20,592 nucleotides of DNA, taken from IMG/VR virus record IMGVR_UViG_3300025646_007973, positions 1-20,592 of that record; one strand, 5' to 3'. Position 1 is the first letter of the stretch. Each line of letters begins with the position of its first letter. The notes beneath the pieces were generated by a model that made no database searches, was not told the origin of the DNA, and worked only from the letters and a program-made list of their open reading frames with translations. This stretch comes from a virus. Made by a program: the position numbers and the translations under genes. Shown here in pieces: positions 35 to 14,888 of this stretch.

Positions 35-463
35 TTATTTTAACATAACGAAGGTAATAAAGGAAGCTAATACTCCCAAAAATCCTCCACCTAACCATTT
101 AATTCCTGTTCTAAGATTTTGGTTTTCTTCTTTTAAATTTTCAACGTCTTTTTCTAAACCTGAAATGATATTTTTTTGTTTTTGTTGGATTTCTAGGTTT
201 AGGGAAGATTGTTTTTCACAAATACTGTCTTTTTGAATATATTTGTTTATAACACTGTCTTTTTGAATGATTGTTTCTTTTAATTGAAAAACTAGATTGT
301 TAGTTTCTTCTAATTCAGCTATCGCTTTATCTCCTCTAACTAAATCAGCTGCTATTCTTTGTGCTATATTGTAACTAAAACAAATTCTATTTGTATCTGT
401 TTGTGAAAAACTCGGTAAGTTGAGAAGGAGTATAACTACTAATATCTTTAATTTTTTTATCAT
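35..463 (-). CDS. Secreted coiled-coil protein with C-terminal membrane helix, spanin-like candidate
   Basis: A 142-residue protein. Residues 1-20 form a Sec signal peptide (KK, hydrophobic core, then SFS|Q, the cleavage style usual in flavobacteria). Residues about 40-115 are heptad-rich, charged and predicted coiled coil. Residues about 122-140 are a hydrophobic helix rich in Gly/Leu/Phe, ending in a lysine. Cys28 and Cys82 are the only cysteines seen. A periplasmic rod anchored at one end fits a lysis protein that bridges the envelope. The first 25 codons overlap the 3' end of the preceding membrane/coiled-coil gene by 77 bp in another frame, reminiscent of Rz/Rz1 overlaps. There is no lipobox (no L-x-x-C), so it is not a classical lipoprotein o-spanin; a variant unimolecular spanin or a structural membrane protein is possible. 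The topology is directly visible; the lysis role is inference. Confidence 0.8.
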   Translation of the reverse strand: MIKKLKILVVILLLNLPSFSQTDTNRICFSYNIAQRIAADLVRGDKAIAELEETNNLVFQLKETIIQKDSVINKYIQKDSICEKQSSLNLEIQQKQKNIISGLEKDVENLKEENQNLRTGIKWLGGGFLGVLASFITFVMLK

Positions 464-752
464 AATAAGCTTTTATATCTATTATTTTTTGGTTTGTGTA
501 GCTTATTTCATTGTTTAATGAATCTATTACATTTTGGTTATTTGAAATAGATTGGTTCAATTCAACTTGTTTTTTTTGTAAATCAACTAATGCATTGTTT
601 AAATTGTCAATTTCTTGTTTTTGTTTATCGTATTTTGATAAATCTACATTAGTTGGTTTAAATACTATCCATAACAGGAGTAAAATGATCGCACCTAAAA
701 TTAGGTGCGATACATTCAATTCCAATTTTTTATTTAAAAGGTTATTCAACAT
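387..752 (-). CDS. Inner-membrane coiled-coil protein, i-spanin (Rz)-like candidate
   Basis: A 121-residue protein. Residues 15-31 are a strongly hydrophobic helix (LILGAIILLLLWIV) close to the N-terminus. They are followed by a long Gln/Asn/Leu-rich coiled coil (about 38-103) and a short C-terminal segment, YTPSQLTEFFTNRYK. One N-terminal membrane helix plus a periplasmic coiled coil is the architecture of inner-membrane spanins. The gene overlaps the end of the upstream tagged protein by 11 bp, and its own last 77 bp contain the start of the downstream secreted coiled-coil gene. The codons for the membrane helix contain a perfect 11-bp inverted repeat at 688-711. There is no sequence similarity to lambda Rz that I can claim; the call rests on topology and gene arrangement. 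Confidence 0.78.
   Translation of the reverse strand: MLNNLLNKKLELNVSHLILGAIILLLLWIVFKPTNVDLSKYDKQKQEIDNLNNALVDLQKKQVELNQSISNNQNVIDSLNNEISYTNQKIIDIKAYYDKKIKDISSYTPSQLTEFFTNRYK
688..711. repeat. Perfect inverted repeat, 11-bp arms with 2-bp centre, inside a coding region
   Basis: Plus strand ATCGCACCTAA at 688-698 is exactly complementary to TTAGGTGCGAT at 701-711, with AA between. It falls in the membrane-helix codons of the i-spanin-like gene. It is GC-richer than its surroundings and is not followed by a U-tract in the direction of transcription, so it does not look like a terminator. It could be an RNA hairpin that tunes translation, or a protein-binding palindrome. The symmetry is directly seen; the role is unknown. 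Confidence 0.75.
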
Positions 753-1500: not shown

Positions 1501-2031
1501 TTAAGAGAATACTGTTTGTTTAACTCTTCGCACTCTCTCCTCGACACTGCCAGCTAAATTTACTATTCGTTGATTCATATGACCAAATTTACTTAATAGA
1601 TTTTTAATTTCTTTATCTATTTCTTTTCTATATTCAACATCTGTTGTTCGAACACCATTATCTTCTATTTCAACACCTTCAGGTGAAATATAAAACATAT
1701 AATCATATTCTTTAATTAAATGTGAAGCTGCTTGACAAATTTCATCAGCCATATAATATGGTATAGATTCAGCTAAACGTGTAAATGCCATAACATCAAT
1801 TACAGTTCTATCTGTTATGATATCTTGGTTCATTAATTCAGCAGCACGTTCAGCCAAAAATACAAATTGACCTTTTACAGTTGAATCTGTGTTTAAAGGG
1901 ATACCTAAATCGCGTAAATATTTTGAACGTTCTGTTCTAAATTCATAGTCTTTAAATTCAGGTAGTTCTTTTAAAGCATTAACTAATGTAGTTTTACCTA
2001 CAGACATTGTTCCACAAAAACCTATTTTCAT
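1501..2031 (-). CDS. P-loop ATPase/kinase (AAA_28 / NadR-like)
   Basis: A 176-residue single-domain P-loop NTPase. It starts directly with a beta strand and a Walker A motif, G-T-M-S-V-G-K-T-T (residues 7-15). D74-R75-T at the end of a hydrophobic strand (IITDRTVID) resembles the DR(T/S) motif of the NadR/AAA_28 group of small-molecule kinases, and an Arg-rich C-terminal segment (VEERVRRVKQ) could supply a lid arginine. In phages such proteins are annotated as AAA-domain ATPases or nucleotide/NMN kinases; the substrate cannot be told from sequence. It starts 2 bp after the stop of the T9SS-sorted protein gene, so the two are probably co-transcribed. Length is complete for the family. The P-loop call is firm; the substrate is open. 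Confidence 0.82.
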   Translation of the reverse strand: MKIGFCGTMSVGKTTLVNALKELPEFKDYEFRTERSKYLRDLGIPLNTDSTVKGQFVFLAERAAELMNQDIITDRTVIDVMAFTRLAESIPYYMADEICQAASHLIKEYDYMFYISPEGVEIEDNGVRTTDVEYRKEIDKEIKNLLSKFGHMNQRIVNLAGSVEERVRRVKQTVFS

Positions 2032-2033
2032 AA

Positions 2034-3635
2034 TTATTCTTTTATAACTTTTATTGTTTCTCCATTAAATTTAATAAAATATATTCCAGTAGGCAAATTT
2101 TCTCCTAAATTTCTTGTTTGAAAACTTGACTCTACTAATTGTCCACTCATGTTGTATATTTCAACTTTTGAATTTGATTCTGTTTTTAAACTAAAGGTAC
2201 TATTAAATGGGTTTGGGTATGGTTTTGTTGATGTTATCATTCCAGAACTTTGTATTCTAATATAACAAGCTTCACCATAATTACCTAAATTAGTTTTGAC
2301 ACGTACTCTAAATGTAGTATTGTTTGTACCTGCCCAATATCCATCTGTACCTGCAGGAGATGAAGCCTCAATCATGTTTAATCTAAAAGCCCTTGACATA
2401 GAACCAAAATCAGAAGCTTCTCTAGTTAAAAATTTAGTAACTATATCATTTCCACTACCATCCAATTCAGTAACTTCAAATGTATAATTTAAAAATCCAT
2501 ATAAATTATACGCTGCTAAAATGGAAGAGGATGATGTTATTGTGTATGGGCTATTAAAACTAGAACCACATTGATTTGCCCCAGCTACTGGGTATTCACC
2601 GTCTCTTAATTTAACAGTTGGGTTAGCAGGTGTATAAACTATTTTTTCTTTACCCCAAGGGCCCCATACACCATCTGCTTTAACTCTAACTGATATTCTA
2701 TATGTTTTTCCATATGGGTTTGAGTTGGGAAAATTTGTAATAGGTCCAAAATCACTTAAAAATACTGATAAATCTCCTGCGTTTTCAGTAGCTTCTGTTC
2801 CTCCAGTTGCTATTACATAAGGTGAAGTAGTTGATGGGAAATCACCTATTCGATATCTAAATTGATAGTCTTGAACATTTGTACAATTTGAAGGTGTAGC
2901 AAAAATAGCATCATAGTGAAGGTAATTTATAGTAGTTCCACTTTCTGCTTCTTCTAATTCAGAACCACAAGGTGTTGAAATGTTACATATTGTACCATAA
3001 GAACCATAAGTTCCATTACATTTTACTTTTACTCTAACTTCATAAGTTGTATTGTATGTCACAAATGAAGTTGGAAAATTAGCTAATGAAAATGCTCTAA
3101 GTGTAGGTACTGTTTTTTCATATTCTTGTACTTCACTTGTACTTAAATTAGTTAATTCAAAAGTATATGCTTCGGCACCAGAAACATTATCAGCATAAAT
3201 AGGTGTATATATTTCAGATAAAACAGCATCACATTGGGAATTTTGAATTTTGGTAGTAGGAATTGGAGGTGTTAAAACAAAACAATCTACTGCTGCAGGA
3301 GCACTAATATTAGAAGAACTTCCAATCCATGTTCTGACAGACACTTTGTAAGTGGTTCCGTATTGAATATTAGCACCTGGGAAATTGGATAAGTTTGTTA
3401 TTCTTCCGGCTACACTACCATATGTAACTAATGAATCTAGTTCTAATGTAGTTTGATTTTCTACATAATATTTGTATCCATCACAAGGTTTTTTAATTGC
3501 TACAAAATTAGAATACAACAACGGTAAATTGTAATTGTAACAATAGGTATTAGTTAACCTAGTTGGGTAAGGTGTTTGACTAAATATATTACTTATCGTA
3601 AGTAAAGTAAAAAATACAAATAGTGACTTTTTCAT
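2034..3635 (-). CDS. Secreted multi-repeat protein with T9SS type A C-terminal sorting domain
   Basis: A 533-residue protein built like a flavobacterial surface protein. Residues 1-19 are a signal peptide ending IFS|Q. About four fibronectin-like beta-sandwich repeats follow (roughly 22-120, 125-225, 226-340, 341-465). Each closes with a form of Y-x-T-Y-x-V-x-V-(R/K) followed by G-x-(Y/W)-G, as in YNTTYEVRVKVKCNGTYGSYG and YGKTYRISVRVKADGVWGPWG. The second repeat begins SQCDAVL, a form common in flavobacterial adhesin repeats. The last ~65 residues (from PYPNPFNS to the terminal IKVIKE, with VEIYNMSGQLV and LPTGIYFIKF between) match the type A sorting domain used by the type IX secretion system. 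It should cross the inner membrane by Sec and then be exported and attached to the host surface by T9SS. The surface role (adhesin, receptor masking, superinfection exclusion) is not visible. It starts 6 bp after the FAD dehydrogenase gene. A virion fibre is less likely because it has both sorting signals. Confidence 0.88.
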   Translation of the reverse strand: MKKSLFVFFTLLTISNIFSQTPYPTRLTNTYCYNYNLPLLYSNFVAIKKPCDGYKYYVENQTTLELDSLVTYGSVAGRITNLSNFPGANIQYGTTYKVSVRTWIGSSSNISAPAAVDCFVLTPPIPTTKIQNSQCDAVLSEIYTPIYADNVSGAEAYTFELTNLSTSEVQEYEKTVPTLRAFSLANFPTSFVTYNTTYEVRVKVKCNGTYGSYGTICNISTPCGSELEEAESGTTINYLHYDAIFATPSNCTNVQDYQFRYRIGDFPSTTSPYVIATGGTEATENAGDLSVFLSDFGPITNFPNSNPYGKTYRISVRVKADGVWGPWGKEKIVYTPANPTVKLRDGEYPVAGANQCGSSFNSPYTITSSSSILAAYNLYGFLNYTFEVTELDGSGNDIVTKFLTREASDFGSMSRAFRLNMIEASSPAGTDGYWAGTNNTTFRVRVKTNLGNYGEACYIRIQSSGMITSTKPYPNPFNSTFSLKTESNSKVEIYNMSGQLVESSFQTRNLGENLPTGIYFIKFNGETIKVIKE

Positions 3636-3641
3636 GGTATT

Positions 3642-4928
3642 TTATTTTAATAAATTTTCTGCTACATAAATTGCTTGAGCACCCGATACTGTAATTCCTC
3701 TTGCACTTAAAGCATCTCCTACAAAATGTACGTTAGGGTACTTGGTTAATGATAAATTTTCATAATCTACAAGTGGTTCCGGTGATAAATATTTTACTTC
3801 GGGCATATAAATTCCCCAATCATCACCTAATGTTGGAAACACAATTTGCATTTCTGTAATAAAATCTTCAATATATTGAGCATATTCTTCACCTAGAGCT
3901 TCAAACAATGGTTCCATATTATCAACTTGAACAGCTGATACTTCATTTCCTTCAGATGTAGTTGATGGTTTGCGGGAAGGGCTATAATAAGTACCAGTAC
4001 CGTTTACTTGAAGTTTTTTAACTGCTTCTCTTGACCATTCAAATGGATTTGAAATTCCATTAATCTCCATTAAGATACCAAAGTTAGTCATATTATTTCT
4101 ATACGCTTCATCTTTTTTAGCGTGACCATTATATGAATGATCCCCATATGTTTCTTCTACAGCAACATAAGCAGCATTATTGTTTGTACAAAATGAACGC
4201 AATGAAACACCTTTATCTTCAAACTTTTTATATAACTTAAAGTCATATGAAATATCAATTAGTTTTTGAAAGTGATGTTGTGGGGCCTCAAATCGAACAC
4301 CTATTTGAACTGATTTAGGTTCATCTGGGAGTTCATATTTATTGGCTAATTCTTGGGCAAAGTCAATGCCTGATTTGCCTACTCCAAAGATAAGTTCATC
4401 ATATTTGTTTCCGAATTCACCGCATATGATCATTTGATTATCAAAATCAATATCTGTTACTTTAGTCTCCCATTCGAATTGAACACCTTTTTCAACCAAA
4501 TAATCGTACCAATTCTTAGCAATTTCAGATAAATAATCTGTTCCTACGTGCCACACAGGAAATAATCGTAAACCAAAATATGGTTTGATAAAATCAGGTT
4601 CTGTTTCAGGATTTGAACATTGTACTTCTTCAGGTTTAGGGTGAAAACGTTTAAAATTGGTAATCACTTGATCCATCAGTTCCATTGCTTTTTCCTCACC
4701 ACAATATTTAGATAATTGTCCTCCAATTGCTGTATGATAGGTTAATTTACCATCACTCCATCCTCCAGCACCTAAGAAACCTGTCATTACTTCTTCAGGT
4801 TTACGGTTGTATGGATCTTTACCCATATCAATTATTGTGATAAGTTCTCCAGGGTAACCATTATCTACTAATTTTGTTGCAGCATTTATACCTGCTACTC
4901 CTGCTCCTACTATTACTATTTTATCCAT
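3642..4928 (-). CDS. FAD-dependent dehydrogenase, COG2509-like
   Basis: A 428-residue flavoprotein. It opens MDKIVIVGAGVAGINAATKL, a dinucleotide-binding fold with G-x-G-x-x-G at residues 8-13. The middle has GGWSDGKLTYH and HVGTDYLSEI, matching the SDGKLTT and H-x-GTDxL motifs I associate with the COG2509 uncharacterised FAD dehydrogenases. Then come IGVRFEAPQ, the family's GVR(V/F)E motif, and SFCTNNNAAYVAVEE. The C-terminus has HFVGDALSARGITVSGAQAI, the second FAD-binding GD motif. There is no CxxC pair, so it is not a thioredoxin reductase. The frame is open up to an ATG at 4955, but the ATG at 4928 puts the first Rossmann strand at the N-terminus and cuts the overlap with the upstream gene from 40 to 13 bp, so I prefer 4928. 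The substrate is unknown; it would be an auxiliary metabolic gene. Confidence 0.85.
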   Translation of the reverse strand: MDKIVIVGAGVAGINAATKLVDNGYPGELITIIDMGKDPYNRKPEEVMTGFLGAGGWSDGKLTYHTAIGGQLSKYCGEEKAMELMDQVITNFKRFHPKPEEVQCSNPETEPDFIKPYFGLRLFPVWHVGTDYLSEIAKNWYDYLVEKGVQFEWETKVTDIDFDNQMIICGEFGNKYDELIFGVGKSGIDFAQELANKYELPDEPKSVQIGVRFEAPQHHFQKLIDISYDFKLYKKFEDKGVSLRSFCTNNNAAYVAVEETYGDHSYNGHAKKDEAYRNNMTNFGILMEINGISNPFEWSREAVKKLQVNGTGTYYSPSRKPSTTSEGNEVSAVQVDNMEPLFEALGEEYAQYIEDFITEMQIVFPTLGDDWGIYMPEVKYLSPEPLVDYENLSLTKYPNVHFVGDALSARGITVSGAQAIYVAENLLK

Positions 4929-5386
4929 TCTGGTTTGTTGTTTAATTTTTTCCAATCTAATTTTTTTATTTTTACTTTATCGTTAATATAAAAATTCTTA
5001 TATGCTTCTATAGTGTTTTCCAATTTAAATCCATCAGGCATACACTGAGGGGGATCCAAGAATCCATTGTCAGGTATATCGGGTTCATTAACTTGAAGCC
5101 ATTCAAGTACATCTTTTGTTTTATGTCTTTTACCATATCGTTTTTCAAATTCATCACATATTTCTAAACCATGTTTAACTAACCATCTATAGTGTTGAAT
5201 GGATTCTCTTGTCCATTTTGTTGATGGGTGGTTAAAATGGGCCTTTTTATAAGGTGCTTCATTACCTACAGCCCAATGTGCAGTACAACACATTTGAGCA
5301 CATTCGATTTGCATTTTTCTAATATGATCGTCTGCTAATTCACGTGCAGCTATAATAGGATCTTCATTAATGTAAAATATATTCAT
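4916..5386 (-). CDS. Conserved phage protein of unknown function, His/Cys-rich
   Basis: A 156-residue protein of a type I recognise from marine phages but cannot name. Typical features are the opening MNIFYINEDP, an A-D-D-H-I-R-K-M segment (18-25), a C-T-A-H-W segment (34-38), N-H-P-S-T-K-W-T-R (52-60), an E-K-R-Y-G-K segment (81-86), and D-P-P-Q-C-M-P-D (111-118) followed by Y-K-N-F-Y-I. The conserved His, Asp, Cys and Trp residues suggest an enzyme or a metal site. Similar proteins have sometimes been loosely linked to pyrimidine-dimer glycosylases, but I see no T4 DenV signature and do not assign it. It is the first gene after the terminator at 5410-5443 and overlaps the FAD dehydrogenase by 13 bp, so the two are co-expressed and possibly functionally linked. 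Confidence 0.78.
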   Translation of the reverse strand: MNIFYINEDPIIAARELADDHIRKMQIECAQMCCTAHWAVGNEAPYKKAHFNHPSTKWTRESIQHYRWLVKHGLEICDEFEKRYGKRHKTKDVLEWLQVNEPDIPDNGFLDPPQCMPDGFKLENTIEAYKNFYINDKVKIKKLDWKKLNNKPEWIK

Positions 5387-6128: not shown

Positions 6129-6385
6129 TTTAAATGTATTTTCAATTTCAAATTACCATCACCTTTAATAACACGATGCCATTCGTGTCTTGGTATAAAT
6201 ATACGTTCATTTAATGAAGTTGGTAACTCGTTATCAAGTTGTATCTTCCAATTTGTTTCTCCAAGGATTTCTAAAGTTCGATCTTCATCATCACGATGCC
6301 ATAATAGTTCAATTGGATCTATATTTTCGTTAAATTCACGAATGATATATTTGTCTGTAACTTCTATGTCGGTGTATGGGGTCAT
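6125..6385 (-). CDS. Small cupin-like protein
   Basis: An 86-residue, all-beta-looking protein. The pattern WHRDDEDRTLEIL (29-41), then WKIQLDNELPTSL, then IFIPRHEWHRVIKGDGNLKLKI reads as a minimal cupin barrel with possible metal-binding His30, His67 and His70. The phrase IP-x-x-x-x-H-R-V-x-K-G is characteristic of cupin motif 2. Similar small proteins are frequent in marine phages; the substrate is unknown. Four-base overlaps at both ends (ATGA at 6382-6385 with the upstream gene and at 6125-6128 with the downstream gene) indicate translational coupling inside the virion block. Confidence 0.78.
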   Translation of the reverse strand: MTPYTDIEVTDKYIIREFNENIDPIELLWHRDDEDRTLEILGETNWKIQLDNELPTSLNERIFIPRHEWHRVIKGDGNLKLKIHLK

Positions 6386-6789
6386 TTTGTTTTACCCCAA
6401 GTTTTACCTTTACCTGGGTCTTTACATTTTGAAGGTGTAGGACGACATGAAGGGTATTTTGCACGTTTTTCACCTTCTTCTCTACCACATGATTTATATC
6501 CTGTTATTTCACCATCTTTTCTAATAGGTGCATTACAATCAACCCATCCACCTTTTTTACCAGGTTCACCTTTACGTGAAAACCAAGTGCGGAGAGTTTC
6601 TTTAACTTTTTCTTGAATAACTTCTTCTTTTAAATCCTTCCAAATCATTCCTTTACGACATTTTACAACAGCGCCGGATTTGTAAGCGGATGGTTTATCG
6701 TATTTGCGATCAGCAATACGGAGACATCTGTCACGTTTTTTCTTTTCTTCTAAAAGAACTTCTTGTATTATTTTTTGTAACCTATCCAT
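6382..6789 (-). CDS. Cys-rich conserved phage protein with capsid-targeting-like N-terminus
   Basis: A 135-residue, very basic protein. Residues 1-15 (MDRLQKIIQEVLLEE) form the recurrent amphipathic tag, with I-Q-E as a possible prohead-protease site. Two segments follow that are widespread in cyanophage-like virion proteins. The first is CLRIADRKYDKPSAYKSGAV with CRKG (22-46). The second is a C-terminal module GGWVDCNAP, GYKSCGREEGEKRAKYPSCR and PTPSKCKDPGKGKTWGKT. Six cysteines (22, 44, 85, 101, 115, 122) suggest zinc binding. The function of this module is unknown to me; basic charge and tag fit a DNA-associated internal head protein. It begins 2 bp after the upstream gene's stop and overlaps the cupin-like gene by ATGA. 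Confidence 0.8.
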   Translation of the reverse strand: MDRLQKIIQEVLLEEKKKRDRCLRIADRKYDKPSAYKSGAVVKCRKGMIWKDLKEEVIQEKVKETLRTWFSRKGEPGKKGGWVDCNAPIRKDGEITGYKSCGREEGEKRAKYPSCRPTPSKCKDPGKGKTWGKTK

Positions 6790-6790
6790 T

Positions 6791-7639
6791 TTACCAAAAA
6801 CCGCTAAAAGAACTTTTTAGACCTAACAAACTTGCATAACGTGGTAATCTACAAGACCAATATGATGCTTTTGTTTTATCAGTTTTTTCTGAACATCTAT
6901 GACGTTTGGCAAATGCTTGTCTTGCTTTTGGGTTGTTTATTTTTGCTTTTAATCCACCAGAACCAAATGAAACTTTTTTAATTCTTTTGGTTTTAGGATC
7001 TTTTACATAAACATAATATGCTTTTGAACCACCACGTTTTGGTTTGTTTAGAGGTGGGTTTTTCTTTTTGTCTTTATTTTCATTTAGGTTTAAAAGATCT
7101 TCATATTCAAAATATACACCATAATCTCTTAAAACTTCTTTAACTCGGTTTAAATCTATAGATCCTTGTTTAAACTCATCAGCTAATTCTCTATAAAATG
7201 GGTATTTAGTATGTCCTTTTTCTTCAGCTCTTTGTAAAATTTTCATTAATGGAACTTCATTAGCTCTAACAGAAAGAGGCATATCTAAAGGTACTCTAAC
7301 ACCTTCATAAATTCCATAATTACCTAAATCAGTTTCTAATAAAATTTCTTTATCATCATTATTTACATCAATAATTTCACGTAAATATAAAGCACGAGCT
7401 TCTGCCCATAAATTAATAAAAGATTTTGACCCATAACGAAAGGTATTTTCAGTTAATGGTAACTTGTTTTGTACATGATATCGTAAATTTTCTGAAAGAA
7501 TTTGTTTAGGGGCTATATTTTCATTTAAAGTTATACCTTTAGGGGTTGGTTTACTGCATTCCCCACATCCACAATTGCAGTCTTTCTTTTTTGGGGGTGT
7601 AGATAATGCTTCTTTTATAAGATTTGTTAATCGTTCCAT
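6791..7639 (-). CDS. Tagged virion protein with YWSCR C-terminal domain and repeated LxE-N sites
   Basis: A 282-residue protein. Residues 1-12 (MERLTNLIKEAL) are the clearest copy of the shared N-terminal tag. A Cys cluster follows (CNCGCGEC, 21-28), perhaps metal binding. Then come three L-x-E-N sequences (LNE40-N41, LSE50-N51, LTE64-N65) in a linker, a central domain (about 68-183), a fourth site (LNE187-N188) and a basic linker. The C-terminal domain (205-282) has VYVKDPKTKRIKKVSFGSGG, ARQAFAKRHRC and ASYWSCRLPRYASLLGL, a module repeated across T4-like marine phage virion proteins. The regular placement of LxE between domains suggests processing by the prohead protease. Gap to the next gene is 1 bp. 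The module match is strong; its molecular role is not known to me. Confidence 0.82.
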   Translation of the reverse strand: MERLTNLIKEALSTPPKKKDCNCGCGECSKPTPKGITLNENIAPKQILSENLRYHVQNKLPLTENTFRYGSKSFINLWAEARALYLREIIDVNNDDKEILLETDLGNYGIYEGVRVPLDMPLSVRANEVPLMKILQRAEEKGHTKYPFYRELADEFKQGSIDLNRVKEVLRDYGVYFEYEDLLNLNENKDKKKNPPLNKPKRGGSKAYYVYVKDPKTKRIKKVSFGSGGLKAKINNPKARQAFAKRHRCSEKTDKTKASYWSCRLPRYASLLGLKSSFSGFW

Positions 7640-10230: not shown

Positions 10231-10698
10231 TTATGTTTCAGGTTCTTCAGTTGGTTCTTCAGTTGGTTCTTCAGTTGGGGGTTCAGGTGGGAGTTCAGAA
10301 TCTGCTTCTTCACCACCTTCTTCACCCTCTTCAACTTTAATTCCATATCTTAAAATGCGAGCTATTGCTTCAGCAGCATGTTGTTCTTCAGGGAGATTAA
10401 GTAAATAGTATTTTTTTCCTTCAACTTGAGCAATCCAACTTCTTTTACCATAAATTAAATAAAATAATTGGTCATTTTTTAAGTTAATTCTAAATGTAGA
10501 AGGACGTGGTGCAACCCAATCAATTGAAGCTACAAAATTATCATACTCAGGAGTTAAAAGATCTACAATAACAGCTTTTAATTCAGGAAATTTAGTTAAT
10601 TCATCATATTGAACAGCTTCCTTAGGTGTAATTCTTTTACTAGAATATACCTGCTTAATTAAAAGTTTTAATTTATTTTGTAGTTCTTCTCTTGTCAT
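10231..10698 (-). CDS. Conserved T4-like marine phage virion protein with PTEE repeat tail
   Basis: A 155-residue protein. Residues 1-20 are an amphipathic helix with LKLLIKQVY. The core LKAVIVDLLTPEYDNF, IDWVAPRPSTFRINL, FYLIYGKRSWIAQVEGKKYY and LNLPEEQHAAEAIARIL is a family I recognise from many marine T4-like phages, usually annotated as structural or hypothetical. The C-terminal 30 residues are an acidic, proline-rich tail with a three-fold 12-bp tandem repeat coding EEPT. The start shares one base with the stop of the 1179-residue protein gene (TAATG), so translation is coupled. The tail is probably disordered. Role in the virion is inferred from family distribution and neighbours. Confidence 0.82.
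   Translation of the reverse strand: MTREELQNKLKLLIKQVYSSKRITPKEAVQYDELTKFPELKAVIVDLLTPEYDNFVASIDWVAPRPSTFRINLKNDQLFYLIYGKRSWIAQVEGKKYYLLNLPEEQHAAEAIARILRYGIKVEEGEEGGEEADSELPPEPPTEEPTEEPTEEPET
10241..10276. repeat. Three perfect 12-bp tandem repeats (GGTTCTTCAGTT)
   Basis: The 12-bp unit occurs at 10241-10252, 10253-10264 and 10265-10276 without mismatch. It codes for the E-E-P-T repeats in the tail of the 155-residue protein. Unit length is a multiple of three, so copy-number slippage would keep the frame and only change tail length. Confidence 0.9.
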
Positions 10699-14249: not shown

Positions 14250-14888
14250 TTATTCCTTATCTGAAATGAATTCGCTTATAAAAAATTTTAAAGTATTTCC
14301 GATTTGAGTAGTAAGTTTTTCATTACCCATTCCTTTAGCTACTTTTAAAGCTGACATTAGGTGGTTCATGAGATCACCTTCATCGCCTTCCATATCAGCG
14401 GCTATATCTTCTAAACCTCCTTCAGAATCAATATCAACATCTTCTTCAGTTTCAGTTTCAACATCTTCTTCAGTTTCAACATCTTCTTCATCTTCTTTAG
14501 CTTCTTCTATATACATAGCAGCAGGATCATCTTCATCAGCATCATGCATTCCACCTGCAGGGTCCATCCAAAATTCGGCTTTTTCTTCTTTTTCTCTTCT
14601 TCGATTTTCTTCTTCTTCGTAATCAGATAACCTTTTATCATAATAATCATCAAACCCTTTATCTACTAAGTAATCTTTTCCTAATCTAGCTTCAACACTT
14701 TCATCATCCCCTAAATCTTCTATTTCATCATAGTCAGCATAATCAGGATTTAATTCATTGAGGATTATTTCGCGAATTTTTTCACGAAGATTACCTTCAC
14801 TTAAATTTTCTTTTTTAAAATAAGGATTAGATTTTTCAATAGTTTTATTTTCTATTAAAAATTTTTTTAAATCGAAAGTATCTTTCAT
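14250..14888 (-). CDS. Acidic virion or scaffold-like protein
   Basis: A 212-residue, strongly acidic protein. It starts with the tag MKDTFDLKKFLIENK, and a second amphipathic helix LREKIREIILNEL occupies residues 34-46. The middle is Glu/Asp-rich with imperfect EEDVETE repeats (about 130-155). The C-terminal 40 residues, DLMNHLMSALKVAKGMGNEK then LTTQIGNTLKFFISEFI, form a helical module seen at the ends of marine phage virion proteins. The 12-bp gap to the 1179-residue gene and the matching N-terminal tag (F-(D/N)-L-(K/R)-x-(F/Y)-L) tie the two together. Acidic, helical and tagged proteins fit a scaffold or internal head role; direct evidence is lacking. Confidence 0.8.
   Translation of the reverse strand: MKDTFDLKKFLIENKTIEKSNPYFKKENLSEGNLREKIREIILNELNPDYADYDEIEDLGDDESVEARLGKDYLVDKGFDDYYDKRLSDYEEEENRRREKEEKAEFWMDPAGGMHDADEDDPAAMYIEEAKEDEEDVETEEDVETETEEDVDIDSEGGLEDIAADMEGDEGDLMNHLMSALKVAKGMGNEKLTTQIGNTLKFFISEFISDKE

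Follow-up and report, generated by a model that had tools for sequence, protein, structure and literature searches.

A predicted type IX secretion cargo gene occupies an insertion hotspot in a group of T4-like phages

Results

A gene with a predicted export signal, a repeat array and a sorting domain

The window, by which we mean the whole 20,592-base IMG/VR fragment (20.6 kb) analyzed here, carries on its minus strand an ATG-started gene of 533 codons (2034..3635) that we assign as a T9SS type A cargo gene from the list of open reading frames, from family matches, and from orthologs found in the same place in two relatives (L011 and L092). Residues 473–532 of the protein (2040..2219, minus strand) match the sorting-domain profile TIGR04183 (E = 6.5e-12, 45.3 bits against a curated cut-off of 23) as well as Pfam Por_Secre_tail PF18962 (E = 2.7e-10, 40.8 bits against a curated cut-off of 27), and the same stretch scored 49.1 bits in a six-frame search of the whole record. 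The domain forms the extreme C-terminus and clears the curated scores, as a type A assignment calls for, and both profiles bear out the type A sorting domain that a sequence-only reading of this DNA had claimed. At the other end of the protein, the N-terminus MKKSLFVFFTLLTISNIFS|QTPYP is signal-like by eye, with a KK pair, a hydrophobic core, and an S|Q junction, and its 12-residue hydropathy maximum is 2.12. Residues 1–19 (MKKSLFVFFTLLTISNIFS/Q; 3579..3635, minus strand) read as a predicted Sec signal peptide typical of Bacteroidota.

Between these ends lies a passenger of four divergent repeats (2238..3569, minus strand), with limits at about residues 23–124, 125–224, 225–337, and 338–466. 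Four of the six repeat pairs (R1-R2, R1-R3, R2-R3, and R2-R4) each outscored all 200 shuffles, with z of 6–8, while R1-R4 and R3-R4 did not rise above all 200; the four adhesin-like repeats described earlier are supported as a repeat architecture of adhesin type. An AlphaFold model of the protein is of low confidence overall (mean pLDDT 54.6, about 80 in repeat 2), and a Foldseek search with this low-confidence model retrieved tandem FN3 arrays from the PDB, the best at E = 5.8e-8. A Pfam search of the protein gave no fn3 match, and we refer to the passenger, on the strength of the model, as an FN3-like array. Family searches found no enzyme domain; the whole protein consists of repeats and tag. 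This composition speaks against an exported cargo that serves host metabolism or competition, a role that has been proposed for some Cryophage cargos, with an endoglucanase and a glycoside hydrolase among them (PMC7468147), and that we consider unlikely here.

The cargo gene is one insert in a variable slot

The bordering and spanin-like genes described next lie on the same minus strand. Upstream, the slot is bordered by an FAD/NAD-dependent oxidoreductase gene (3642..4955; Pyr_redox_2, phrog_12409) and downstream, 2 nt from the cargo stop, by an AAA_28 nucleotide-kinase-like gene (1501..2031; Pfam AAA_28, phrog_2107) that is conserved across relatives. In L011 and L092, this order of FAD oxidoreductase, cargo, and AAA_28 kinase stands upstream of spanin-like genes and the terminase. 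The gene at 387..752, which encodes an N-terminal transmembrane segment and a coiled coil, is spanin-like by a weak match to the Rz-like phrog_214 (E = 0.002) and by synteny, being near the terminase in relatives. It is overlapped by a gene at 35..463, described from sequence and synteny, whose coiled-coil product has a signal-like start and a C-terminal transmembrane segment and gave no family match; the overlapping pair (35–752) are possible spanin partners. Family searches also identified genes for a Mre11-like exonuclease, a DnaG-type primase, a PD-(D/E)XK exonuclease, an NT5C nucleotidase, a SegE GIY-YIG endonuclease, and a pyrimidine dimer glycosylase elsewhere in the window. The late-promoter motif TATAAATA occurred at 8 sites, no more than expected by chance.

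Two further features of the window were recorded in passing. An amphipathic stretch, L..IxxExL, lies at or near the start of several proteins (742–1476, 6382–6789, 6791–7639, and 14250–14888) and recalls the capsid-targeting starts of T4 internal proteins, and positions 10231–10300 hold four overlapping tandem repeats, spaced by 12 bases, that encode an acidic tail, TEEPTEEP.

Relatives of the FAD oxidoreductase were found on 526 viral contigs, 80 of which were fetched, and the slot was surveyed in 78 loci with both flanking genes, the cargo-bearing L002 and L011 included. In 23 of the 78, the slot counts as empty, with at most 40 nt between the flanking genes, and the rest hold mostly unrelated inserts, for example pairs of genes of about 90 and 127 aa, GIY-YIG genes, or, in L015, L026, L067, and L074, inserts of 4–5 kb with an AAA+ ATPase-like gene (functions as read from sequence). 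The gap between the FAD and AAA_28 genes (1501–4955 in the window, with equivalents in L003–L082) is therefore an insertion hotspot in this phage group, and the cargo gene is one of its inserts. Since most relatives have the slot empty or filled with mostly unrelated genes, the cargo gene is accessory.

The cargo gene belongs to the phage and is under selection

An accessory gene that resembles a cellular cargo might reflect an assembly join of host and phage DNA, or be a host gene that was captured recently and is decaying. Against this, an independent contig from another metagenome (L002) matches the window at 99.6% nucleotide identity over 3,990 bases that run across both gene borders, and in L011 and L092 the gene sits in exactly the same slot, so that in all three it has phage genes on either side. 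The gene's GC content (0.313) is similar to that of its neighbors, and its orthologs are under purifying selection: the copies in L011 and L092 share 92% identity, and their dN/dS is 0.13 at a dS of 0.33. We accordingly reject a chimera with host DNA, which the sequence-only reading had named among the findings that would overturn it, as extremely unlikely, and likewise a decaying captured gene. A genome pattern scan recovered no close cellular homologs of the cargo, and none were found among plasmids; the corresponding scan for the FAD gene gave only distant relatives, Firmicutes and gammaproteobacterial.

The ortholog in L011 and L092 is 410 aa long and has three repeats where the window has four. 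Its sorting domain stays above the cut-off in both (44.2 and 38.8 bits, respectively), and its N-termini, MKSLLFIFLFVPLSLIAG, are unrelated to that of the window yet signal-like. Compared with that of L011, the window's passenger is only 48.7% identical in amino acids (dS about 1.1), whereas the neighbors are far closer (FAD oxidoreductase 85%, dS 0.6; AAA_28 88%, dS 0.5), and identity reaches 76.5% over the final 34 residues of the sorting domain. A passenger so much more divergent than its neighbors is what would be expected of a surface-exposed, exchanged part, and the pattern fits a passenger that was replaced or that diverges fast between conserved ends, two options that fit these few sequences alike.

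The same comparison bears on whether the protein could instead belong to the virion, as a fibre or decoration with a mere sorting-domain lookalike. FN3/Ig-like repeats are frequent on virions, and PHROGs, where neither this cargo nor the others described below have a family, gave one marginal match of repeat 2 to a major tail protein (phrog_4971, E = 0.0073). Both ortholog types, however, have a signal-like N-terminus along with the full sorting domain, neither of which is needed in virions, and the gene lies outside the tail cluster and is optional in the lineage. A virion protein is improbable on this evidence.

The type A tag recurs on other phage passengers

The sequence-only reading had called for a survey of phage genomes for T9SS domains, and such domains were indeed present in five relatives, in Flavobacterium phage immuto, and in LR756502 and LR745206. 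Among 30 relatives searched whole, the five with a sorting domain above cut-off comprise L011, which has the same gene, two with a cohesin-type protein of 633 or 634 aa, and two with proteins of 801 or 932 aa rich in repeats of the GCTDPxAxNYNPxANxDDGSC type. The type A tag is consequently found with three distinct passenger types in one T4-like lineage. No further sorting domain was detected in 50 mostly shorter relative contigs, and the search was specific, with hits in 0 of 6 phages of non-Bacteroidota hosts and 0 of 6 other Bacteroidota phages. A tblastn search of phages with the whole cargo protein gave no match, and one with the sorting domain alone gave weak leads, from which three records were confirmed by profile.

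In immuto (vB_FspM_immuto, MW353175), the protein immuto26A_15 combines a cohesin with a TIGR04183 domain (46.5 bits), and its annotation makes no mention of a T9SS cargo. Together with immuto26A_14, it matches the two halves of the 634-aa cargo (33% and 26%).

Several observations accompany these cargos. The adjacent reading frames immuto26A_14 and 15 (L117:5599-7423) correspond to the single 634-aa cargo of L088:7654-9558, and immuto26A_15 has its own signal-like start; the gene may really be split in immuto, or the discrepancy may stem from sequencing. A guess that immuto26A_17 is CsgG-like was dropped after Pfam and CsgG searches found nothing. At L090:4955-10369 and L091:5025-10038, the GCTDP...GSC-repeat cargo is followed by a 353-aa protein with a signal-like start, judged by eye to resemble an outer-membrane barrel; next come a secreted thioredoxin-like protein and an amidase endolysin. 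LR756502 (L110) and LR745206 (L112), phages of about 640 kb, encode short signal-like proteins with sorting domains beside a DnaJ-like gene.

Phage group and host

The isolate nearest to the phage group is immuto, a 160-kb T4-like phage. The window's terminase gene lies past its left end, and that of relative L092 is 57.9% identical to immuto TerL over 99%. The window's order of primase, exonuclease, and NT5C genes recurs in immuto, where they lie upstream of the terminase. By terminase and gene order, the phage group is T4-like and related to Immutovirus.

The synteny points most likely to a flavobacterium-like Bacteroidota host. The earlier statement that the sorting domain fixes the host phylum holds as to a Bacteroidota host, in that the nearest isolate infects Flavobacterium, and fails as to the domain being sufficient proof: a control search also matched Deinobacterium chartae, and T9SS is ascribed more widely to the Fibrobacteres-Chlorobi-Bacteroidetes group (PMC7468147), so the domain alone is insufficient to name a phylum. 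Synteny with a Flavobacterium phage is better evidence of the host than the sorting domain. Separately, this Bacteroidota phage group shares 55% terminase identity with Microcystis phage Mel-JY01 (L101, PP395634), which is recorded as infecting a cyanobacterium and whose host assignment may merit rechecking.

Discussion

A Sec signal combined with a type A sorting domain directs a protein to surface export through the host T9SS. On this knowledge of T9SS, the cargo is very likely an exported T9SS protein. The reading draws on a sorting domain retained in both orthologs despite only about 49% identity elsewhere in the protein, on the low dN/dS and the same place in three distinct phages, and on the same tag in four relatives with two other passenger types and once more in immuto. 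The signal peptide would take the cargo over the inner membrane by Sec, and the sorting domain would lead it through the outer-membrane channel of the host T9SS, where the domain would be cut off and the repeat array attached to the surface or released. Putatively by this route, a protein made by the virus is probably displayed on the surface of infected cells.

The FN3-like array, serving as a stalk or adhesin, could alter what binds the infected cell, and it would most likely obstruct the surface adhesins and receptors on which other phages rely, or compete with them, giving superinfection exclusion. Mutations in gld/spr genes (T9SS and gliding) make F. columnare resistant to phage V156 (PMC9233685), which implies that features of the cell surface that depend on T9SS are important to infection, and a cargo made by the phage could obstruct them. 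We hold with moderate confidence that T9SS export of an array that alters binding to the infected cell, most likely for superinfection exclusion, is the best explanation as a whole. That superinfection exclusion is the main role of the cargo is a more tentative proposal that we rate as less likely than not; the effect on adsorption is inferred.

Spanin-like and terminase genes are expressed late in T4-like phages. The position of the cargo gene beside them would leave little time to block a superinfection, and its late and lysis-type neighbors better suit an exported cargo for adhesion or aggregation, by which infected cells or their remains would stick to particles, polysaccharide, or neighboring cells. 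Progeny phage might in this way reach new hosts, or the infected cell might be held in place. FN3-like tandem arrays are typical of adhesins, and related phages encode cohesin-like, C-type-lectin, and repeat-rich secreted proteins; yet no binding domain was found in the cargo beyond the FN3-like repeats, and it has no known partner. Adhesion or aggregation is a possibility that we rate nearly as likely as superinfection exclusion, close behind it.

Phage-encoded T9SS cargos, and the idea that they serve superinfection exclusion, have been published for Cryophage by Bellas et al. 2020 (PMC7468147), so that the kind is known. The present cargo resembles those of Cryophage in that type A sorting domains are encoded by a Bacteroidota phage and vary between phage variants, and differs in its FN3-like array, in place of which Cryophage has endoglucanase, GH39, and PA14 passengers; beyond that case, the slot, the orthologs, and selection are measured here and a cultured relative is identified. 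De Jonge et al. 2019 described T9SS sorting domains in 'cluster 2' of crAss-like gut phages (PMC6949934). By description, those phage proteins likewise join repeats to a T9SS sorting domain, but the repeats are of the BACON kind and the genes lie next to head genes. A further comparison is immuto26A_15, whose phage is likewise T4-like and belongs to the same broad group, and which begins with a Sec signal-like stretch and carries a TIGR04183 domain. It differs in having a cohesin passenger and a gene located elsewhere in the genome, close to that of a C-type lectin, and is not orthologous. Cellular T9SS type A cargos of Bacteroidota share the plan of signal peptide (predicted in the present protein), repeat passenger, and type A sorting domain but are chromosomal. 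The papers searched did not contain this gene, its slot, its selection, or its link to a cultured T4-like phage.

The takeover by a phage of the host's outer-membrane secretion machine is a proposal for which we found no test in those papers. The selection evidence, the conserved slot, and the relative in a cultured phage make the case testable, and immuto on Flavobacterium sp. LMO8 offers a cultured pair in which localization and adsorption can be tested directly. More broadly, and with the case close to balanced, T4-like Bacteroidota phages may keep exchangeable T9SS-exported surface proteins that remodel the infected cell, their passengers swapped while the tag is shared and the flanks stay fixed.
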